From NCBI GenBank assembly GCA_963920765.1, contig OY987243.1:18595419-18659418 (forward strand): DNA of 64,000 bases. The letters run 5' to 3'. The notes below the pieces were generated by a model. That model was not told the origin of the DNA. It searched no databases and saw only the letters and a list, made by a program, of their open reading frames with translations. Origin of the DNA: Ulota crispa. Taxonomy: Eukaryota; Streptophyta; Bryopsida; Orthotrichales; Orthotrichaceae. Made by a program: the position numbers and the translations under genes. Shown here one piece after another: positions 296 through 39,116 of the stretch. How positions within the stretch are numbered: the stretch's first letter is position 1; each line of letters begins with the position of its first letter.

Positions 296-2251
296 ATGAA
301 GACGAAGCCGCTCGACAAGGGAGTACTGGAGGGAGTGGCTTACAAAGTGGGCTTTGTCGTCATCATTCTCTTCCTGGGCTACAAAATGGCCGCCGCGTGC
401 AGCCGAACCGTGCTTCTGCAAGACTACATGGCCAGTTTGCAACCTGGCTTCGTGGTCCCTCCACCAGCATCCGCTGAGTCTTCATCAAACGTAAGAGCTA
501 ATGATCTCATACGCAGATTTGAGCCTGGATGCATTGCAAGCTGCATCTGTAAGGCTGAATCAGGTCCAGCAATGCCGATACCGATCTCACACATACTTTT
601 GGATAAGGGAGCGATCCTTCCAGTGAGTTCTGCAATGATCTCTCCATGAAAGCACATGCTTGAAATGACGGAGAGAGTGTAACATACCTTGCTTGAATTG
701 CAGGAAAACAGTGCTGTGAAGAAGATCAGGATTGACACTTGGCCACTGCTGTACCCGACGTTCGCAAACGAGAGTGTGAGCTTGCTGCAGCAAGTAGCTG
801 AAAATCACACTCTGCCGTGTTACCAGCAGCCAACGTTCACTGCAGAGGTCTTTGGCTTACCGAAGCCGGAGAATGGGAACCCGATACAGCTTGAAACAGG
901 CAAAATCCATGAGCTTCTGATAGTCTCGTATGAAGCAAGTGGTCGGAGACGATGTGCAGGAGGGGACTTCTTCGAGACGGACCTCACCGGCGTGAACTGG
1001 AAGGCGCGGCCGCCCGTTCTCGACCACCAGGATGGCAGCTATGGCGTGCAATTGATGCTGGACTCACGGTTCGCAGGAACTTTTCTGTTCAAAGTGGTGC
1101 TCTTGTTTGCAAATTTCCATGCCTTTGATGCCTTCAACTGCACCGCCTGGTCGCGCCTGGAAGACGTCCTCACTGTAGAGATTGAGTTTAGGGTTCCAGA
1201 CACGGGAGAAGAGTTTGTACCTGCGTTGCCGAGATGCAGCAATGGCGATTTCGGATTGAAAGCGTGGAGTGGGAGGTGGAATCGCCATACCTGGAACGAG
1301 ACGTGCGACATTCGCGACGACGGGAGGTTCGTGTGCATCGATCCGGATGAAGCATGCGAGCCGGGTTGGTGCGAGGGGAACGTGGGTCTGTTGGAGAGCA
1401 ACGGGTGGGCGTACTCCGCGCATTGCAAGTTCAAGATCTTCACAACCGACGAGGCGTGGGAGTGTTTGAACAACCGGTGGCTGTTCTTCTGGGGCGACTC
1501 CAACAACGAAGACACCGTGCGGAACTTGCTCAACTTCGTTTTAGGCTTTCCTCTCTATGATGTCAATCACATGCGCCGGTGGTTCAATGGCACGTACTCG
1601 CGTCCCGGAAGCGCAAACCAGTCCGTCACCATCACGAAGATCTTCAATGGCCATGGGGAGGAGTTGGGTAATCTGGCGGGGCTGTCGAGCTTGCAAACGG
1701 AAGCCTACCGGGAGCTTTTGATCTCCTTCTGGAACGAGTCCAGGTTCCCGGACACCATGGTGATGAACTCCGGCCTCCACGACGCGCATTTCTATCACCA
1801 CGCGCGGGACTTCGCTGACGCAGTGGATTACGCCATTCACTTCTGGAACTCCCTTTGGAGGCAAACCAACCCCGCCGTGGTGTATCGAACCACGATCACG
1901 GGCGCCGGGTACGCCAAGGGCGAGACGGGCCATGCGCGCGACGGCCTTCCTAACCCTCACAAAATGGAAACGTACAACAGGATTTTCGTGGAGAAGCTGC
2001 AGGCGAAGGTAATCGTCAAGAGCTTGAAAGTGGTGGACGCGTTCGACTTGACGTTTCCATGGCATTACGACTTGAATCACACTGATGGCGTGCATTACGG
2101 CCGGGAGCCTTTGAAGGCGCCGTGGCCGTGGCGCCCCGCGAAAGAAGCGTGGCGTAGCCCTCAAATCGGGCACCAGTACTTCGTGGATCTCATGCTTGTG
2201 CACATCCTCCTCAACGCCGTCTGCCCCCTCTCTCAAACCCCAAACCCCTGA
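296..2251 (+). CDS. Membrane-anchored filamin-like + SGNH/PC-esterase (NXPE-like) protein
   Basis: Two exons, 296-490 and 704-2251, joined in phase across a GT-AG intron, give 580 residues. The start is the ATG at 296; the open frame reaches a little further upstream only through a non-ATG codon. Residues about 18-34 (VGFVVIILFLGYKMAA) form one hydrophobic segment near the N-terminus, so a type II membrane or Golgi protein is likely. Residues about 120-240 look like an immunoglobulin-like filamin/ABP280 repeat (GGDFFE, then a DG-Y-V strand pattern). The C-terminal half carries SGNH hydrolase landmarks: FFWGDSN with the nucleophile near Ser331, a block NSGLHD at 420-425, and TDGVHY with Asp526 and His529 as the D-x-x-H pair. 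This order is that of NXPE/PC-esterase proteins, which are thought to act on acyl or sugar esters in the secretory pathway. The substrate is unknown. The family call is from motifs only. Confidence 0.8.
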
Positions 2252-2330
2252 ATCCCAAAACCCCTGAATCCCAAAACCCCTGAATCCCAAAACCCCTGAA
2301 TCCCAAAACCCCTGAGTCTCAAAATCCCCG
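2235..2330. repeat. 16-bp tandem repeat over the esterase stop codon
   Basis: About five to six copies of a 16-bp unit (AATCCCAAAACCCCTG) start at 2251, 2267, 2283, 2299 and, degenerate, 2315. The TGA stop of the esterase gene at 2249-2251 lies in the first degenerate copy, so the array forms the start of the 3' UTR. The unit resembles the TTTAGGG-like motifs near other genes here but is not a plain telomere repeat. Confidence 0.85.
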
Positions 2331-2711
2331 ACAAAGTCCGCAAGGTGCCAGACACGCAGTTTTTACAAAAAAAAAATCAATACAAATCAATAGTAACATG
2401 CGCACCACATTCTGCTCAGCGTCGTTTGAGCAGTTGAAATGTAACGATAAATCATATGAATCGGAAGAAAGGTCAAATTCAGTCCATCTGAGTATCTCCG
2501 CCATGAATGCTGAATAATCACTACATACTGGTACTGTACATATATCAATAGTATGGTCGGTAAGTTACGCCAAATTCTTTCTCTACGTTGTTGAGTACAA
2601 CTGAATCGGGATGACAAAGCATATTGAAAAGTTGAAATCTAGTTCATCCAGGTGTCTGGCTCCGTCATGAATGGTTTCTGGAACACTGGGGCCAGCCTTA
2701 TCCAGTTCTCC

Positions 2712-2732
2712 AGGGTTTAGGGTTTAGGGTTT
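2712..2732 (+). promoter_or_regulatory. Telo-box-like (TTTAGGG)n motif upstream of PTAC2
   Basis: Three head-to-tail TTTAGGG-type units occur about 430 bp before the PTAC2 start, with another TTTAGGG near 2802. Short telomere-like motifs (telo boxes) are common in 5' regions of plant housekeeping genes. The rest of 2331-3163 shows no gene and probably is the 3' flank of the esterase gene plus the PTAC2 promoter and 5' UTR. Confidence 0.5.
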
Positions 2733-3163
2733 CGGATTTTGCCTGTGACTTGGGTTCACTCGGATTTGTCGATTTCTTGTCATAGGATTGATTTTTGTAG
2801 ATTTAGGGTTGTTTCTGACGGTCTACGAAGATCTTCTGCTTGGAATTTGAGCAATTAAGCTGGTTGCATCGTGGGTAGGGTTTTAGGAATTTTTTTGACG
2901 TCGTGGAGCCTACGAGAGGCTGTGAATGCAAGTTGGATTCGTTTGAATGGAATCTGAACAGTCGAAGCGGTTGCGTTGCGGACTTTTGTGAGTTTTTGCG
3001 ACTTTGTGGAGACTACGAGACGTTGTGTGTGTGGTGTGTGTAATTGAGGTATGGTGTGAGGGAGGGCAGTGTTTCGCGTGGGAATGATGAGACGGTGTAG
3101 GAGAGAGTGACGTTGATTCCGGTTGGGTTCAATTGTTCTGAGGGAGAGTCGGAAACAATTGCA

Positions 3164-6100
3164 ATGGCAATGGCAGCGAACCGTTGCATTGCGGGATACG
3201 TAGTGAGCGACGCAGCGCAAACCTCGTCGGCGCAAGCACTCTCGCGGCGATGTGGGAAGCTCTCGAGCTCTCTGCTTTCAGGGCGCACTCGGTGGACGCG
3301 CAGGGAATCAGCCAAGTTCGTAATCGAGGTCGCGCAGGCTTCCTCCTCAAGCAACACTCGGAGGTCGCTCAGTCGCCAAGCGCAACAGGTGGCCGTGGTG
3401 GCCGCCCTGGAGAATCCGGACATGGTGAAGGGCAAGTACAGCTACGACGTGGAGAACGCCTTCAACAAGCTCACCTCGCTCGGACCGCGCGGCAGCATTG
3501 CCCGAACCATGGAAGGGTTTAAGAACAAGCTCACCATGCACGAGTTTTCTCTCATCTTCAGTGAATTCGCACAGCGCAGCGACTGGCAGAAAGCGTTGCG
3601 GCTGTTCAAGTACATGCAGCGACACCAATGGTGCAAACCCAACGAGCACGTCTACACAATCATGATCGGTACAATCCAGGCACCACTCCATTTCAAAGCT
3701 CTTTTTTTCTTCTGAAAACAGCAAAGTTGCGTTGCACGGCTTTTTTTTTCTGATTTTTGGTATTATACTGTAAACAGGAATCATGGGACGGGAAGGAATG
3801 CTGGACAAGGCCTCCGAGCTTTTCGAAGACATGCCACTGAACGATGTAGAATGGAATGTATACTCGTTCACTGCTTTGATAAATGCATATGGGCGCAACG
3901 GGCAACACGAAGCATCACTTCATCTGTTGAACCGGATGAAACGGGAGAAAGTGACTCCGAACTTAATAACGTACAACACCGTGATCAATGCTTGTGCAAA
4001 AGGGGGTCTGGAGTGGGAGGGCCTTCTCGGACTGTTTGCACAGATGCGGCACGAGGGCATTCAACCTGACATTATCACCTACAACACGCTCCTCAGCGCC
4101 TGCAGCAGGTCGGTGATTCTCAACGTACCATGTCCAGAATTCAGGGCTCAGCATGTCAAACACCTTGGACTTTGCAGAGTAGTCTAAAACTGAGCAGTCT
4201 ATTCTGTGTGTTTCATGGAAGAATTTTGTGTAAGTGGTATTTTGATGAAACCAGATGGTTTCGGGAACTTTGTAAAGCAGTCTAATTGGACTGAAAATAT
4301 TGGTTTTTTAGATTCTAGACTTGGAAATGCTACGCCTAATGTGGTGCTGAGGAATTCGTTTTTATGTACGTTTGGCAGCCGGGCGCTTGTGGAGGAGGCT
4401 GGCATGATATTTCGGACAATGAACGAGGCAGGTGTAGTGCCGGACACCGTCACGTACAACGCTCTAGTGGATACATATGGGCAGGCAGGCCAGCATGAAG
4501 GCGCTGCGGAGTTGTTTCGAGAGATGGAGAAGGCCGGCAATGCCCCTGATGTCGTGGCCTACAACATTTTGATTGACGCGTATGGAAGAGCTGGCATGTA
4601 TCGTGCAGCTGCCAAAGTGTTCAAGCAAATGCAAGAGGCTGGATGCACACCGAACGTGGTCACGTTTAGCTCTCTCCTAGAGGCATATGGCAAGCATGGC
4701 TGTTACGACGAAGTGCGAGTTCTGTTTACGGATATGAAAGCCAGGGGCACTGAGCCTGATATCACCACCTACAACACTCTCATTCAAGTGTTTGGGGAAG
4801 GAGGCTTTTTTCAAGAATCTATCAACCTTTTCTGGGACTTGCTTGTACGCCCTCTTCCTTCATCTTTTTCTAGTTACGATGCTTATTACCTGGCCTTGTT
4901 GTACAGGATATTGGATTCTTCATTGAAAAATCATGGCCTGTGTGCGTTGCGGACGTTAGAGCTCATCCGAAGACCTTGTTATTGATATTTGTATCTTGCA
5001 GGATGGTGAGCTGGAGCCAGACATGTCAACGTACGCAGGCCTACTTTACTCCTGTGGCAAAGGGGGCCTTCACAAGGCGGCTACAAAAATTCACCGTCAC
5101 ATGCTTCAAAGCAATGTCACGCCCACTTCAGATGGTTTCACTGGTAAGTAATAGGATTAAACCTAAACTTCGCAGCATCTAGTATTAAAGCAGACATCAA
5201 AATTTAGGGTTTAGGGTCTGACCAATGTGCGTTGGTGTGTTGTGTCTGAGCAGGTCTGATTGCAGCTTACGGAAATGCTGCTCTTTATTCCGAAACCACA
5301 AACGCTTTCAACAGCTTGAGGGAGAGTGGATGCGAACCTGACCAGGATACTTACAACGCCTTGATTGGGGCTTACGCAGGTCCCAACCCTTTTAATATTT
5401 TTTAGAAATGCCCAAACATCCCATATTGTCGACTCGCAGCTCTCGACGGTAGTGAAGCTAGGGTTTAGGGTTTATCACAGGGCTCAACTCTTTTCGTTTT
5501 TTTGCTTACATGAAGTCTTGGGAGCAGGCAAAAGTATCTATTTTCGTAGTTTTCATCTGTCGGTAATTAAGTTGAGTTGTGGTGGCTCATGTTCTTTTCA
5601 CTGTCGGTGCAGGTGGTGGCTTATACAGTGAAGCGGGAAGTGCGTATTTAAACATGAGCGATGTCGGTATTCCAGCGGATGTATCCACGTACAACTCCCT
5701 CATTGAAGCATTCGGTCGAGGAGGTCTTTTCGACGACGCCATCGAAGTGAGTCGAGACATGGAGGAGGCTCGGTGCCCTCCCAACAGACACACCTACGAA
5801 GCCTTGATGGGCGTCTATTGCACGGCAGGGCTGTTTGATGAAGCCAAAGCTCAATTCCTGGATCTCAAAGTTGGCAGTGGATTGCCCAGCGTTGATGCCT
5901 ACTGCCTCATGCTCTCTGTCTGTGCTCGCCGGAACAGGTATCTCCTTCGTTCCCATTAAAAAATAAATAAATAAAAACTTAAGCGTTAAACTCCAAAAGC
6001 ATTGGTCGTAAAGGGGTTTTTTCATTCTCTACTTTAGTTAGAACTGGCTGGATATGGAAAGTGTAGTAACGTGGAATTTGCTTGTTTGCTTGTCAGGTGG

Positions 6101-24188: not shown

Positions 24189-24934
24189 CGCAAGCTTTTT
24201 GATTAAAATATGGTGCATAATGGGTCCATTTTGGTAGAAGAAAACATCATTGCATCGTTATGCAATGTAAAACAAGTATACCAAATTTTAGTTCCTAAAA
24301 ACCAAAACTCCATTTTTGGTGAATTGTTTTGTAAGAAATTCATGGTTTTACATGATATTTTATTGAAAAATATTGGTGATGAATTTTTAAGAAATAATTC
24401 CATGGATATGTAGAAAATATCCATATGCACATCCTCCATGTTAAAATAACCCTTTTGAGTAACAAAGACAAAAGATTCAATGAAACTTGTGATAAGCCCA
24501 AATTTTGTTGTTTGACTCAAATATTGTAACTAAGTTTGTGTCTCTAGACATCATATTTTGTTTATTTGATGAAAAGCTAGTTAGAAAACAAAAATACATA
24601 TTTTACAAAATTTAAGCCTATCACAAGTTTCATTGAATTTTTTGTTGGTAAAGTTTTTGTTACTTAAAGGAGGTTATTTTAGCATGGAAGATGTGCATAT
24701 GGATGTTTCCTACATATCCATGGAATCAAATTTCAAAAACTCATCACCAATATTTTTCAATAAAATATCATGTAAAACCATGAATTCATTACAAAACAAT
24801 TCACCAAAAATGGAGTTTTGGTTTTTAGAAACTAAAATTTGGTATACTTGCTTTACATTGCATAACAATGCAATGATGTTTTCTCCTACCAAAACAGACC
24901 CATTATACTCCATGTTTTAACCAAAAAGCTCACA
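24189..24934. mobile_element. Foldback element of about 745 bp
   Basis: Two arms of about 300 bp (24189-24500 and 24600-24934) are inverted copies with high identity; the left begins AAGCTTTTTGATTAAAATA. The loop near 24500-24600 is unique. The open frames in both arms are mirror images of one another and are a product of the inverted repeat, not a gene. No target duplication is obvious. Confidence 0.75.
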
Positions 24935-26306
24935 GGCTCAAACTAACAATTCGTAAGTACCAGGTACCGGACTGTACAAAGCTTTCAAAATTATCACTAT
25001 TTGAAGGGTGCAAGAAGATAGCAAAGATAGCAAAAACAAGACAAAAAAAAACAAAGGAAAGGTAGAAAGTGAAGTACAAAAAAAGACATATTTTTAAAAT
25101 GGCCCATGTTCTTTTTATTGTGACTAAGAGCATCTCCACCGAGGGGCATCTCTATCTGTATCCAGATGATTTTCATACAGGTATAAAAAAAAACCCCCCA
25201 CTAGTAACTTGTATCAGAACTTTTTTCCAAAATTTGAATGATGCAGGACCTCAATTTGCTATCCGCGAGGTCATATACGGGACTAGGTTTCAATAAACCC
25301 TATAAGCAATTTTTCAAAGAAGTGCCAAGTTTCTTACCTTGATTCACTGGTGGCCCACTTGCAATGGCCTATGTGCAATCATTTCCCCTTGTCCATCCTA
25401 GCCTAGGCACCCCTAGTTTAAAATCCTTTAGTCCATCATATCATAATTAAACTTAGTTCATGTGTATCTAAATTTAATTAGCAAGAGTGATTAGTTCATG
25501 TTGAGTTCAAGTTCTTAATTAATGAGCATAAGAAATGAGCATCATTAAGAGTTTAAGTTACCATTTTTTAAATAGTAGAATTAAGTTGTTCCACACTAAT
25601 TTCTTGATAGTTGACACTTTATAAATATCTTCTGTTGTTATTCAAGTACAAATTACTTTTAAATTTGTTGTACTAATTGGGAGTCATAAAGTGCTGTTTG
25701 CAAAAATGGAAATATATATAAAAACATGTGATGAATTTTATGTCTTAAATAAATAAAGTAACTTTCTTAGAATAAAACACTCTAATTGTTAAGGCAAATT
25801 AATGTGAATAAGTAGCATACGTTACATGTTTTTTACTCCTCAAATATTAAGAAAACACACTAAAATAATCACACTAATTTGGAAGTGAATTCCTATGGTA
25901 ATAATTTAATAAATTTGCACTAAATTAAAAAAAAACATGGAGAAAAAATTAGGAGATAATCAAGAACATATTTGTTTTGTTATAAGAAAAAAAACTCTAG
26001 ACTTTGTATACATAAATGAATTTGCCAACAAAATTGCCCAATAAATATAATGAAATGAAAATACATGTCACACTTTTCTTCATCATGTTCAATAAAGTTT
26101 GTTACTATTTTTTGAATTTTGCAAATAAAAAATCATCACATATAAAAAATATTCACTAGCAATTGCAATCAACTACTTCTATAGATTGAATTTAAAACTT
26201 GGAAAATTAAACTCGTATTGAGTAACTCAAAATCATGAATTAAGTATTTATGTCACTCATGTATTGTTGTACACTAATAATTTGATGGAGAAGGTTCACC
26301 AAATAA

Positions 26307-27295
26307 TTATAGTGCATTAAGACTTTGGTTCTCAAGAGGTGGACTACCTTTGCTCTCTTCAATTTCAACTAAAATAGCAGCATTTGAAGATGGAATGGAA
26401 GTTGGTACTGAAGCATTTAGATCAATAGACATAAGAGGTAATGGCAGCCTAGTTGGAGATACTGATCTAATATTCATTGTACGCACTACTAATGTTGGGC
26501 GTTGCAATTTTGATGATGCATGTCGTTTCAACTTGCTATTTGGATGTCCCATAAGAGAGCTTGTTTTTCATACCGGTGATTAAAATGAGCTATCCATTGT
26601 GGGTCATCACGTGATAATTTGCAAAATAATTTGTCAAATGCAATTTCTTCCACTACTTTCGTCCTAGCGTCTATACATTTTGACAAATTTGCAATGGTTG
26701 TAACATTACAACTTATGTTTGCAGCTACTAAAGCCTGAGATTGCAATGATGTCTTGGTTGATTTTGATCCAAGTGGCCTTTGATTTAAAATAATTAAATC
26801 ATCAAGTACTACGTTTGGAGTTTCTTCAATATTTACTTGAACGTTGATTGATTCTTTTCCCTTACCTTTATTCCCTAAGCTTTCCCCTATTATTGGTCTT
26901 TGGCACCCTTCAAGTGCCCATTCTGGTGCATCTTTTACTATTTTTCAATAATGTTCATATTTAAATGCAGCTCCTTTTGGATCATCACTTACATACATAG
27001 CTAATGCCAATTCATATTCATCATCAGCATTCGTATGATTTTTTCAATATTTTTTCACTTCATTTAAACACCCCATAAACTTCTTTGTATCATGCTTGAT
27101 TTCAGACCACTTGTTTTGCAAAGATTTTTTGGTTTGCTTTGGGGTACGATCAAGGTTGAATTGATCTTCAATCTTTGACTAAAATTGGTCACAAGTTTGA
27201 TTAGTGGCTCTCACCGGATCCTGGGAAACTGCAAAAAAACATTGAGCAAGTCTGCTATCATCTTCACTTGAATAATTTGCTTGATTTTTCTTCAT
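26307..27295 (-). pseudogene. PIF/Harbinger ORF1 (Myb/SANT-like, NAM-associated) relic
   Basis: Read on the minus strand from the ATG at 27295 the frame shows the trihelix/Myb-like signature of plant PIF ORF1 proteins: NYSSEDDSRLAQCF, then DRTPKQTKKSLQNKWSEIKH, then KFMGCLNEV, and later QRPLGSKSTK, the basic stretch typical of these proteins. Three in-frame stop codons interrupt it in the N-terminal half. ORF1 proteins of this family help the transposase bind DNA. It cannot make a full product. Confidence 0.75.
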
Positions 27296-29800
27296 TGGAA
27301 TAAGCATTGGAATAGCCAAACAGTAGACATGATTACAAAAAGATATTGAATTGGATTGAAATAAGAATGAGTAAAATATAAAATATATTGATAAGATTTT
27401 AGAACATATAAACATACTGTACATTTCAATGTATTTTGTAATTACTCATATATGAAGTGATTTTTTAAAGTAAAAGGAATCAAAGTCAAATAAATAAAAT
27501 CAAAAAATACAACAAAAGAAAGTATAAATAAATAAAAGTAAAAAAATAAAAGTAATTTGCCCCCCTAATTTAAAATTTTCACAAGCATTATTGGAATTGA
27601 ATCTTTCTCTGTGATTCCAAACTAAATCAAAATCTCTAAATCCATATGTGAACTCCACATGTGGATGGTTCTATCCATCATTTGCTTTTACACACTCCAT
27701 TGACTCTAGAATGTCTCTTGCCCAACCAATGCAAAACAAGACAATACTCATTGGGCTAAATGCTATCACTCTCTAGAAATTGTAATATATTGATGGAGTT
27801 AATTTTGTACATAGAGATTCTAATCTTAAGTTGTTGTGTTTGATATTCCCATGTATGGCTATATTTAGGGCAAATTTTAATCTATTTATTTCAAAAAAAG
27901 TATTGAAAACATCCCTATATTTTGCATTACACAACTAATGCTCCAACATTTTGAAAGTATTGAAGATATTTTCAGATGAATACTTTGATGTATACACAAA
28001 AAATGCTCTTTGCTTTGGAATAACTCCTTTGTATGGTAATGTGTGCCTTATAGCATCATCCACCTTGTAGGTCACTTTTGCCTCCTAAATGTCTTTCAAC
28101 AAAGAAAGAGTATTCAAATCTTAAACCAAAGTGGTTGAAACTAGATAATTAAATTTTTGGGATAAAACATATTTGTAATTTCTAGATTGTATTGGCAAAA
28201 TGATATTATGAAGTTAACTCCACATAATTGGAGATAACAAAAACTTCAAAAAGAAAAAAGGAAAAGAAAAACCAAAATAATTGGATGGACATGATTGGAA
28301 TTTGTTTTCTTTCTTGGTTTTTATTTTATTTGTTGCATACAAAAATTAATGAATGGCAAAGGTTTTTCAAAGTATCAAACTATATTAGTTGGTTCATGTG
28401 ATTAAACAATACAACAAGATATTATATCAAATATAAGCATGTAAGCATGGTCATGAACCAAGTGCATGGATATGTGCCACAGTGCATGATTAAATCAATT
28501 TGGTGCTTTAAATAAGTGATAAACATTGTTCCCAAAATTGGCTAAATTTAGCTAGATTTTTACAATATAAATTGTGCGCTACACGCATACAAGAAAAAAA
28601 CTAAAAAAAATAGAGATTTGAGCAAGAAATCATACCTACAAAATATTAAATCACGACTTGCTATTTTTTCCTACTCCGCAACTAGCATCCATCCCCTCTG
28701 TCAGCTTTTGGGATGTCACTCATTAGCTATCTTGAGCATACACTTATAGCTGCACCGGCAATGTTTTCACCATCTAAATTGCAATCTCTGATTTCCTCTT
28801 GCATAGAAATAACAAGTTGAGGTCTCTGGCTAAGGTTAGTGGAGTGGTTAGTTGAATTAGTGGAAATTAATTAGGTTCAGTGGTTCACTGGTTGAGGTGT
28901 TGATTTTTGTTGCAAACTTGCAATGGTGTAATGCCACTTGCGTACTTGTTGTTATGCACCAATTGTGCAGCCCACTGCTCAATTGCTAGTTAATATGCAG
29001 TTTAGGTTCAATTGCACAAAAAGCACATTTGTGAGGTTAAATTGCAGCACATGGTAAACATGCTATGCAATTCTAAAGTTGAACCTTAACTTCAATGGCC
29101 TCTACTATATTTTACTTGAACTTGCTGGGAAAGTTGAAGCTTAGAGTTTAATGCAAGTGCAACTGTGATTTTTCATTACCTATGTCAATTCTAACTCATA
29201 CTAGTGGGGTTTGTTTTTGTTATTGTGCAAATCAATAATACTACAAAAAGGGCAATCTTGTTAATGCAAGATGGGCTCAATTTCAAAATTAGTGAAATTG
29301 TTTGTGACAATGTTTGTTTTTGAGCATTTGAAATTTTACACCACAATCGCCAACATTTTACATTTTCCAAGATTGGTTAGCCAAAGCAACAAATTGATTA
29401 ACTAAAAGTAGCTATTACTAAACTCCACAATTTTCTTCAAGTTCGGGAATCATACTCTACTTCTAGAAAAAAATTACCCAAAATTCTACATTTTTTCCCC
29501 TAAGTTATCTGTTGTGCTCTAACCATTTTCTTTCCATATCACAATAATAGCTCCTTTCTTCCCACCGTTTTAGCCATTTGGCTAAAACCCCAAAACCAAT
29601 TTTGGGAACCTTGGTGATAAACCTACCATATTATTTCACATGGATAAAGTACTACACTCTCAAATTAAAAATGTAGAATGTTTTAGAATGTCAAGAGCTA
29701 AATCATTCAATCAACATATTTGAAAAGGAAGAAGAAATTGACATTCAATAGCAAGCAAAACAAAAAAATTGTGAATAAAAAATATTGTCAATGATGTCAC

Positions 29801-29805
<5 letters not shown>

Positions 29806-29841
<36 letters not shown>
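29806..29841. repeat. (TA)n-(TG)n microsatellite
   Basis: About 28 bp of alternating TA followed by TGTGTGTG. It lies inside the PIF/Harbinger element about 130 bp before the plastid insert. Confidence 0.9.
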
Positions 29842-29842
<1 letters not shown>

Positions 29843-29977
29843 TACAAAGTCAATCATCAATGCAAGCGTAACCCTTGAATTGTTTTTGTACTTCAACGTT
29901 CCTACATTTTGCTCTATTTAGGATCTTGTATAATGTAAACATATCTAGTCATTAACCAATCCAACAAGGATGAGTTT

Positions 29978-30426
29978 TCGCTAATTCAATAGCTTTTTTC
30001 ATAGTTTTTTTAAAAGCATCTGAACCTTCTAAATGTAAAACAATATATTCAGCAAGAATGTTAGGTTTTTCATATGGCTTTGTTATTTTTATTAAAGTCA
30101 TTTGGAATTTTTTGATCTCCGGGAATTAACATACTTTGTACATCTTAATTGTTCAATACCACAAGTACAACTTTTTATCAATAATGCAAGAAATACAATT
30201 AGTATTTCTACTTGAATCAAAACTTTTTTTTCTTTTTATTTCAATATGTGCAATTCCTCCATTATTCAAAGAATTTCTTATATACTTTATATATAATTTT
30301 CATTATAAGAGCATATTTTTTGATCTTCTTGCAAAAGTTTAGAGTATGTTTTTGGTTTTGCAAACCAATAAGGATGATGGCTTTGATTTACACCAAGACA
30401 AAAACCAAGTAGATTTTTTTTCCCAC
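29978..30426 (-). pseudogene. rps3: Plastid rps3 relic in nuclear DNA
   Basis: From 30426 downward the frame reads [20 protein letters not shown] followed by [11 protein letters not shown], which matches the start of plastid ribosomal protein S3 ([23 protein letters not shown] in plants). A second frame gives VLIQVEILIVFLALLI and GIEQLR, and a third gives KPYEKPNILAEYIVLHLEG and AFKKTMKKAIELAKT. The initiator is GTG in place of ATG. At least two frame changes and several stops break it. The C-terminal third is missing. Confidence 0.88.
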
Positions 30427-30485
30427 TCTTTTTTTCCTTTCTAAATGATATTAGTTTTTAAATGATGTTAGCATTAGCTTTTTTA

Positions 30486-30690
30486 CTAATTTTTTATTTT
30501 TACAACAAGAGTTATATAACAAATAGGTTTTTGAACAGGATATCCTTGTCCTTGAGCTCTAGGTTGAAATCTTTTTAAAACAACTCCTTAATTTACTTGT
30601 GCTTCACTTACAATTACATTAGCTTTATCAAATTTTAAGGCATATGATAAGTCAAGTGCTTTAGATTTAGTCAGATATCAAACATAGGTC
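30486..30690 (-). pseudogene. rpl22: Plastid rpl22 relic (3' part) in nuclear DNA
   Basis: The minus-strand frame reads FDKANVIVSEAQVN, a stop, then [17 protein letters not shown] and [11 protein letters not shown] before the terminal stop at 30486-30488. This fits the C-terminal half of plastid ribosomal protein L22 (KAEVN.G..LKRF.PRARGR and CHITIV). The upstream half is absent or unrecognisable. Confidence 0.85.
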
Positions 30691-30955
30691 CAATCAGATG
30701 GAAGTAATAAAGAAAAGAAAAAGAAATGATAGTAAATGATAATGAAATAATAAAGAAAAAGTAGAAGAAATAAAAGTAAAACAATTGAAAATAAAAGATA
30801 AAAAAAATATAAAGAGAAATAAAAGAAATAAAAGTAAAAGATAAAATAATAATAGGAAAAAATAAAAGATAATGATATAATAGAGAAAAATAAAAGATAA
30901 TGAAGCAATAGAGAAAAGTAGATGAAATAAAAGCAAAAGACGTAAAAAATTATTA
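30690..30955. repeat. Purine-rich low-complexity tract
   Basis: About 265 bp made almost only of A and G plus some T, with repeated AAATAAAAGA and AGAAATAAAAG words. The long hydrophobic minus-strand frames here are a product of this composition. It borders the plastid insert. Confidence 0.8.
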
Positions 30956-31100
30956 TATATTTCACATTTGAATAATACTAAGATGTATTATATATTAGTG
31001 ATGTAGTAAAGGATTTCTTTATTTTTCATTGTTGCCATTTCAGAGGAAAATAATTATTTTTGAAGTGGATTTTTGAACTAAGCTTTGCAATGGGAGAGCG

Positions 31101-32364
31101 ATGGGAAGAATATTGGATGATTGGGGAAAATTAGAAGACTTACTAGTTGAAAAAGTTGAATTGCAACAACAACTATTGCAATGTCTTCCACAAGTGCAAA
31201 TCAAAAAGCATGGTGGTTCAATACCACAAAGAACATGCAATTTAAATCAAGATTGGAGGCAATGGTACAATCAAAGAGTGAGAGATTATTTTGCAGCAAA
31301 TCCCTTGTTTCCTGAAATACATTTTTGAAGGAGATATTGAATGTCAAGGGACTTGTGTTTGAAGATAGTTAAAGATGTTGAGATGCATGACAATTGTTTT
31401 TGACAAAAACCAAATGCAACTTGTAAATTAGGTATTTCAAGCATCCAAAAGTGTATTGCAGCTATAAAGCAATTGGCATATGGATTTGTTGCAGACGCTT
31501 GTGATGAATATGTAAGATTGTCGGAAACTATAGCAAGTGAATCATTAAAAAGATTGTACGTGCAATATGACAAGTTTATGAAAAAAAAATTTACATAATC
31601 CAACTCGTGAAGACATATTAAAGCAAATGGAAGTAAATAAAGAAAGAGGTTGGCCATGTATGTTTTGGTCACTTGATTGTATGCATTTGCAATGGAAGAA
31701 TTGTCTGACAGCATGGCAAGGTCAATTCATTGACAAAGACGGTAATTACTCAATCATTTTAGAAGCTATATGTGACCAATCATTATGGATTTGGCATGTT
31801 TTTTTTGGTATGTCTGGAACCAACATTGACATAAATGTTTTGGATAGTAGCCCAATTTTACATAACTATCTCAAAAATCAAGCTCATGATCTCGAGTTTG
31901 AGGTAAATAGCAATGAGTATAAAAGATATTATCTGTTAACAAATTCAGTTTATCCACCGTAGAGCATTTTTGTATAAACAATCCATGGAGCTCAAGAGCA
32001 GAAGAAGCTACATTTTGCAAAAATTAAAGAGGGTACAAAAAAAGACATTGAATAATGTTTTGGCGTTTTGCAAATAAAATGGGGTATTATACAACAATTA
32101 AACAGGCAACGGAAATTGGAAATAATTGAAAACATAGTAATGGCATGCATAATTTTGCATAACCTTATTATTGAGAATGAAAGAGATGATGCACTTCCTC
32201 CTATTAATTATGAGACAAGTGACGCATTACCAATAGATTGTGCTTTAACATTTGAAAAATACCGTGAAGGTTCAAGGCTAGTGAGAAATGACTCACGTTT
32301 TTTAAACCTTCCAAATGATTTTATTGAGCATCATTGGGCAAGGATTGGAAGAATGAGTATATAA
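31101..32364 (+). pseudogene. PIF/Harbinger (HARBI1-like) DDE transposase relic
   Basis: The central frame 31627-31962 has the DDE_Tnp_4 core: FWSLDCMHLQWKNCLTAWQG with the first Asp, then LEAICDQSLWIWHVFFGMSG and DINVLDSSP with the second. Upstream parts in other frames give DWRQWYNQRVRDYFAANPLF, CLKIVKDVEMHDN and SIQKCIAAIKQLAYGFVAD, and downstream 32068-32364 gives ACIILHNLIIENERDD and the usual C-terminus. The segment around the third acidic residue (near 32040) is disrupted. Several stops and frame changes make it non-functional. HARBI1-type transposases cut and paste PIF/Harbinger DNA. Confidence 0.88.
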
Positions 32365-33161
32365 GGTGAAGGAAAACAAGTTAACATCATTATAATATAC
32401 ATCATATGTAGCTATAATATAATTTATGTTAGTATTTTAATTTCTATACAAATAGTAGAGTGCTTATAGATTGAATTTTAATTTAAGGTAAACTTTCAAA
32501 ATTCATGAAATAATTCATTGCTCAACTTTTGAATAAATTATGACATGGACTTATTCTTTTTTGATAATTGATAAATATATGCAAGTGAACTTATGGACTA
32601 CATTAACTTAAACTAGTGCTCTTTCAATTTATAAATTTAATATTACTCTTTTATTTTATTTTTATTTTTTTGGTCTATATCTACTAATTCATTTTCTAAA
32701 TCCTTTTAAGAATTGTCACAATTATTAAATCACTTCATTGTCAATTAATAGTTAGATGCTTCAACTAAAATTTGTTCCATTTTGTTGATTAGCATTGGTA
32801 GATAAACTAATAACTTAATAAATGACTTAGTAACCTAATTAATAAATTAGTAACTTGTTTAATAATCTAACTACAGTTGGATTAGTGACTAAATACATGA
32901 GGCATGAATAAATGATTTGACACATGAGTCGAGTTAACATTAGTGAAATGCACATTATTTCAAACCAGAGACACACCAACTAGAACCATTGACATATCAA
33001 TAACCAACAAGGGGGTTGTATTACTACAAGAATTCAAATCTCAATAAAAAGTCTACGAATGGGAAAAAACTGGTGGGCTTCTTCGTCCCTATCCCCACCT
33101 TTCTTGCACCTTCATCCATTTAGGGATGAAGATAGGGAAACCCCTTGTGGAGATGCTCTAG

Positions 33162-38451: not shown

Positions 38452-39004
38452 TAAGAATTAAAATTGGAACATCCTTTGGTCACCATAAAAGTTGAATTTC
38501 CTGAGCTAGTGCATTCATGCAACTCTGAGCAAATTCCTTGCTTCCTCAATATTAATTGGATTCTTCTTGCTAACTATGCAAGAAGTTTGCAGCCTCAACA
38601 GTTAGCTTAGGAGTCAATTTCTGGACTTTTCATCCATGGCCTCCAGCCAAGGCTTAAGTTGCTATCGGGGAAGGCAGATCACCGCCACCGTTGGCAAAGA
38701 GTGGCTTTATGAACAAACCGTCTACACTAAATAATGCATTCTGCCCCAAACTAAATTTTTGTCATTCTACACTACATAAATACTTACCGGTACTACATAA
38801 TTTTCATCAATAATCACTGCAATAGTTTGTTTTAAACGGCTTGACAAACAACATCTAAGTTGCAAATATATATATAGTGGCATCCAGGTTGTAAACAATG
38901 TGAATTTCTAGTATCTAAACAATTACATGTGTTTTCAAGTGGTCAAGCAATGATTCATGAGGTAACTTTTCAAGGTAAGGCAACTTAATTGATGAGGCAA
39001 CCTA

Positions 39005-39116
39005 AACGCACTATTTAGTGTAAATTTAACTCATTAACCCCTAAATACCCTAGAGGACACTTTTGCACTATTTAGTGTAATTTTACTCATTAACCCTTGA
39101 ATGACCTAGAGGACCA
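39005..39116. repeat. 56-bp tandem duplication with TTAACCCNTRAAT words
   Basis: Two adjacent copies of about 56 bp share GCACTATTTAGTGTAA and CTCATTAACCC, and both end in CCTAGAGGAC. Each holds a TTAACCCC/TTAACCCT word like the ends of the TTAA-flanked elements in this window. Confidence 0.75.

Follow-up and report, generated by a model that had tools for sequence, protein, structure and literature searches.

Nuclear fragments of plastid DNA (NUPTs) are described, in the part of PMC6215612 drawn on here, as complex or mosaic insertions made by end joining, with microhomologies of 1-7 bp. The available text of PMC12572781 suggests that copy-and-paste transposition may disperse NUPTs near retrotransposons; the suggestion comes from spatial association, and for DNA transposons 3 species showed a positive association and 22 a negative one. 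Pack-TYPE transposons (PMC8903248, main text in part) are non-autonomous elements that carry captured coding DNA of their host within terminal inverted repeats (TIRs) and have no transposase gene of their own. No mention of plastid, chloroplast, organell- or mitochondri- occurs in the available main text of that paper, and neither these terms nor Harbinger occur in PMC13317346. Within the accessible texts of open PubMed Central, a collection with most subscription papers outside it, we found no report of a TIR transposon whose copies carry plastid DNA.

The locus described here lies in the moss Ulota crispa, in a window of 64,000 nucleotides (contig OY987243.1, positions 18,595,419 to 18,659,418) that forms part of the 36.98-Mb contig C2 of a 275-Mb genome in 157 contigs; other contigs are likewise given by number. 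Like the NUPTs of PMC6215612, so far as that text was available, it is a decayed nuclear plastid fragment joined to other fragments, with a TTTT resembling their microhomologies at one join; unlike them, it sits inside a TIR transposon and its block has been duplicated as part of that transposon. The host shares with plant PIF/Harbinger elements a Plant_tran transposase, a divergent second ORF, TIRs and, in imperfect form, a short A/T-rich target duplication; what sets it apart is the captured DNA, in part plastid, that lies between its two genes. It resembles the Pack-TYPE elements, as the available text presents them, in being a TIR element with fragments of host DNA, yet it retains a broken transposase gene, which places it outside that class, its cargo includes organelle DNA and no gene use is indicated. 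Spread of a NUPT by a transposable element is also what the accessible portion of PMC12572781 proposes; here, by contrast, it is one traced case involving a DNA transposon, with two copies and shared borders. The finding thus joins two known phenomena in an unusual way, in a single traced case. That the element carried plastid DNA is the best supported option, and we put at roughly 0.8 the probability that break repair placed a composite filler containing plastid DNA between the element's genes and that the element then transposed with this filler.

The host element and its genes

The original prediction had set an old plastid rpl22-rps3 fragment between the two genes of a PIF/Harbinger transposon of about 8 kb. 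Such a host is indeed present, with TIRs and a Plant_tran transposase, and spans 8,031 bp (25128-33158):

25125..25127, no strand: left target-site duplication, TAA, read from the sequence; its partner at 33159-33161 is TAG, two of three bases alike
25128..25170, plus strand: left terminal inverted repeat, beginning GAGCATCTCCACC; its first 12 bases equal the right end, the match is imperfect further in and the inner limit approximate
26280..27320, minus strand: decayed second ORF, divergent partner of the transposase, from its frames; the limits are those of the translated stretch
27440..27556, plus strand: A-rich tract between the genes, to the left of the composite insert, with limits set by eye from the insert-free tract of the C2:34.78 Mb copy
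31088..32364, plus strand: decayed PIF/Harbinger transposase, from its frames and PF04827 (Plant_tran) on two open pieces
33116..33158, minus strand: right terminal inverted repeat, from comparison with the left end, inner limit approximate
33159..33161, no strand: right target-site duplication, TAG, read from the sequence

The ends at 25128 and 33158 form terminal inverted repeats of the PIF/Harbinger kind: GAGCATCTCC occurs exactly at 25128 on the plus strand and at 33149-33158 on the minus strand, with TAA and TAG as the outside flanks. The target duplications, judged against the 3-bp TWA form, are of 3 bp and imperfect both here (TAA/TAG) and in a second carrier on C1 (TAA/TTA). The transposase is recognized by Pfam PF04827 at E values of 4.6e-40 (31582-31962) and 4.3e-09 (32056-32364), both above the cut-off, while PF13359 falls below its cut-off. 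The divergent ORF gave no Pfam match in the one piece compared (26528-26944); PIF elements usually have their Myb/SANT-like gene in this position. Since the window and C1 transposases have stops at the same two places, the last movement of the carrier may have needed a transposase supplied from elsewhere.

The composite block around the plastid piece

From left to right, the block consists of an arm of a MITE-like element, a nuclear segment that we call X, the plastid piece and a stretch of about 55 bp that only the two carriers have:

27547..27660, plus strand: single arm of a dispersed MITE-like element whose two arms are inverted, truncated where it joins X (loci L060 and L061)
27649..29978, plus strand: X, a nuclear segment resembling one place on C8, split in the window by a hAT-like element (sequence comparison)
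28524..29613, no strand: nested hAT-like non-autonomous element with ends CATTGTTCCCAAAATTGG and CCAATTTTGGGAACCTTG and a perfect 8-bp duplication, GTGATAAA, at 28516-28523 and 29614-29621
29975..30638, minus strand: plastid-derived insert (NUPT) with the 5' part of rps3, the spacer and the 3' part of rpl22, from BLAST to the plastome contig and comparison of borders and frames
30639..30700, no strand: about 55-60 bp between the plastid piece and the A-rich tract, matching only the C1 copy

A search of the genome's contigs matched 29975-30638 to C157:82078-82748 at 88% identity over 674 columns (E 3.2e-242). C157 (112.5 kb) is taken as the plastome, or a part of it, because it carries plastid genes in their usual order: its open frames, named from their translations, run rpl2 (part), rps19, rpl22, rps3, rpl16, rpl14, rps8, infA and rps11. 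Among frames of at least 75 aa, no rpoA was read between petD and rps11 (C157:77000-86900, L037); plastid rpoA is often absent in mosses. The peptide words of L22 and S3 first noticed in the window are present on its minus strand, and this 88% match to C157 confirms their plastid origin. The piece is thus a NUPT that comes from the species' own plastome and lies on the nuclear contig C2 within a transposon. Its span had been given as 29970-30690, which contains the plastid part and overruns it on the right, where the last 55 bp or so match only the second copy of the element.

The notion that plastid DNA had been inserted needs amending in one respect: the plastid piece is real, but it came with the MITE-like arm and the C8-like segment. 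The arm has dozens of matches among the best 40 of 93 candidates. The counterpart of X on C8 lies at 16507261-16508156 and 16515083-16516179 and ends at the plastid border, beyond which C8 has a different sequence. Both the C8 sequence and the plastome have TTTT at the join of X with the plastid piece, a possible 4-bp microhomology. That X is a gene fragment was considered and provisionally set aside; frames of 35-66 aa between stops overlap its C8 copy. X has been kept unevenly: the C8 stretch at L031 4165-4519 is found in the C1 copy and lost from the window, and the C1 copy shows no match either to the part of X at 27794-28522 or to the nested hAT-like element.

The most likely course is that a break or an excision gap in the A-rich intergenic tract was repaired with filler made up of the plastid fragment, the MITE-like arm and a piece of nuclear DNA. 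A variant with the same later history, compatible with this reading and deserving some weight though it is the less probable course, has the NUPT already lying beside X-like sequence, so that X and NUPT were captured in one step. X directly adjoins the plastid piece and is similar to a single nuclear locus on C8, as this variant would have it; that locus, however, has no plastid match and differs exactly from the border on.

Distribution of the element and of the plastid insert

With all first-look candidates scored, there were 19 matches to the transposase and five to the divergent ORF, four of the five with most of the query. Both genes occur together at four places: the window, C1:7.887-7.893 Mb, C2:12.23 Mb and C2:34.78 Mb. 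For the plastid piece, searched together with short flanks, all 15 candidates were scored and gave 16 matches, in the window, on C1 and at 14 others, with none at the C2:12.23 Mb and C2:34.78 Mb copies. Two of the four two-gene copies, the window and C1:7.885-7.896 Mb, therefore carry the plastid insert, which is not widely spread. The C2:34.78 Mb copy shows the insert-free site: its homologies to window 27551 and 30862 meet in one A-rich tract. In the C2:12.23 Mb copy, about 1.8 kb of different sequence separates the two genes.

Ten loci (L029-L038) account for the 14 other matches, which comprise C157, NUPT pieces on C2, C3, C8, C9 and C10, and, also on C8, a match of 79 bp that spans the left flank and takes in almost no plastid sequence. 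Beside the NUPT pieces at these loci, only short matches to the element (59-84 bp) were found, on C3, and the stretch matched there is scattered through the genome; the C10 NUPT has beside it a repeat from outside the element. On C3 (C3:32.176 Mb, L029 4691-5312) this plastid region is represented by another NUPT, distinct and recent, in which 602 consecutive alignment columns agree fully with the plastome contig. At C2:30.587-30.596 Mb (L030), a stretch of 9 kb contains several further NUPT pieces from the region, small and rearranged.

The second carrier and how it arose

The question posed at the outset, whether another copy of the transposon holds the insert with the same borders, is answered positively by C1:7.885-7.896 Mb. 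The left plastid border, ..GATGAGTTTT|CG.., and the right one, ..TTAT|CAAA.., are identical in the two copies, which also share the two genes, the MITE-like arm, parts of X and the 55-bp piece. The idea of an element moving plastid DNA is borne out to the extent of these two carriers, and the other two of the four two-gene copies are without it. By BLAST, the window aligns with the C1 copy at 81-83% over 25798-27762, 29656-29816 and 29846-33026, and at 72% over 25124-25802. The C1 copy adjoins another element of the family and contains insertions of 929 bp and about 1.5 kb.

The divergence between the two copies is 8-12% in the transposase, 13-21% in the insert and the surrounding intergenic DNA, 21-23% at the right end and 30-34% in the first 500 bp. 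Taken per 250 bp, the insert (14-20%) has diverged no less than the neighboring non-coding DNA of the element (13-21%), so a short conversion tract did not bring it in afterwards. Among the best 40 of 50 candidates, the left end of the C1 copy is 81-86% identical to stretches on C9, C1:12.02 Mb, C7 and C5, as against 73% to the window copy; among the best 40 of 296, the closest relative of the window's left end by identity is C4:8.61 Mb (82-84%), and in both cases closer relatives may exist beyond these. Because the first 500 bp or so are strongly diverged and the C1 left end has closer kin elsewhere, one of the left ends was acquired by exchange within the family, or is evolving in an unusual way, or a long conversion tract made one of the copies. 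We had suspected that the C1 left end was swapped by recombination at the nested 929-bp repeat; a 1.2-kb stretch on C9 has the same end with the same nested insertion, at 88%, and from this comparison the odd left end may be that of the window copy. On C9 a right element end follows about 3.2 kb away, and this unit with both ends indicates that the C1-type lineage moved.

These data bear on a reading in which the insert arose in one element and was copied by gene conversion into a second that already existed, the carrier itself never having transposed. A conversion tract that stopped short of the left end would leave just such a stretch of about 500 bp far more diverged than the remainder. It would, however, have to run for about 7.4 kb between contigs C1 and C2, almost to the right TIR; the divergence of the insert does not drop below that of its flanks, and the C1-type left end with its 929-bp insertion occurs on C9 within a unit that has both element ends, so the lineage was mobile. 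We consider this conversion improbable.

The flanks argue that the element was the unit duplicated. When the 3 kb adjoining either end of the window element were compared sensitively with 19 kb around the C1 copy, no collinear homology was found beyond the element ends; the sole match, of 43 bp, falls inside the C1 element. With no collinear flanks in common, it follows that the element was duplicated with the insert inside it. An ordinary segmental duplication that chanced to include the element with its NUPT would also give the same internal borders in two copies, and BLAST with the whole window does return matches outside the element, such as 284 bp on the same strand at 38742-39025 (71%). 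These are, however, scattered at unequal distances, partly inverted or repeated, and none adjoins either end; a flank yielding only 43 bp beside an interior 81-83% alike makes such a duplication very improbable.

With transposition of the carrier as the preferred reading, the order of events can be followed in the changes of the plastid piece. With the plastome as reference, over 648 gap-free sites, the window has 73 changes and the C1 copy 91, and the two differ from each other at 112. Identical changes in both number 25, as against 46 in the window only and 64 in C1 only, and two sites have changed differently in each; random placement gave a mean of 6.8 shared changes and a maximum of 16 in 5,000 trials. 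Of the shared changes, 23 are at coding sites (20 missense, 2 stop and 1 silent), a predominance of missense and stop changes that places their origin outside a functioning plastome, free of plastid coding constraint. Since 25 derived changes are common to both, the fragment had decayed in the nucleus, by about one third of its total change, before the copies separated. The decay first read from the many stops of the insert is borne out. Third codon positions of rps3 are not the most changed in the insert. Only one of the 10 plastome CpG sites in this stretch is still CG in both carriers, a loss that would be expected of methylated nuclear DNA. No function is indicated for the plastid piece. 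Two independent plastid insertions into two elements, which NUPTs of the same region elsewhere, including the one on C3, might bring to mind, can be dismissed in view of both borders, X, the 55-bp piece and these 25 changes common to the two copies.

By this order, the fragment would have joined the element, decayed in the nucleus and then been duplicated inside the element to or from another contig, probably by cut-and-paste transposition, as the element ends suggest; both copies would have decayed since. The low divergence of the transposases (10.4%) had suggested selection, and with it autonomy after the capture, but the codon positions do not differ and give no evidence that the carrier lineage stayed functional. 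After the split, no selection is seen in the transposase (75 of 781 at positions 1+2 versus 42 of 392 at position 3; Fisher p 0.54) or in the partner ORF (89 of 683 versus 47 of 342; p 0.77). Weighing against transposition of the filled element are the number of carriers, only two, the imperfect target duplications and the strongly diverged first 500 bp.

Transposon spread of NUPTs has elsewhere, in the literature as available here, been inferred from co-location, and here one NUPT is followed through an insert-free element, composite insertion, nuclear decay and duplication inside the element. Other genomes can be examined by a simple test, namely the same NUPT borders inside TIR-bounded copies. 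Movement of elements could inflate counts of NUPTs that are taken as separate arrivals. More speculatively, and in our estimate rather unlikely, excision gaps or breaks in an active TIR transposon might be repaired with organelle DNA, the transposon serving first as an entry point and later as a vehicle between chromosomes.

Other arrangements of the element family

At the C1 locus (L027), two elements of the family, 453-3345 and 3349 onward, are arranged tail to head and separated by TAA alone; at its two outer ends the pair has 26 identical bases, with TTA flanking both. The 929-bp insertion is a dispersed repeat, located at the same place in the C1 element (L027 4017-4945) and on C9 (L063). 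It also lies beside the divergent ORF at C2:12.23 Mb (L058) and, in a search with the C1 copy, was found to flank the C3 NUPT (L029) on either side, some kb away. At C4:23.856 Mb (L062 826-1735), pieces of the C1 element occur in permuted order, L027 positions 5131-5761 followed by 4832-5125 (94% and 96%), and overlap by 6 bp where they meet; this looks like a reinserted circle of about 930 bp or a template switch. Just outside the window element, 24191-24930 is a near-palindrome of about 740 bp with mirrored open frames at 24203-24529 (minus strand) and 24585-24920 (plus strand), and a related copy is found on C10 (L032).
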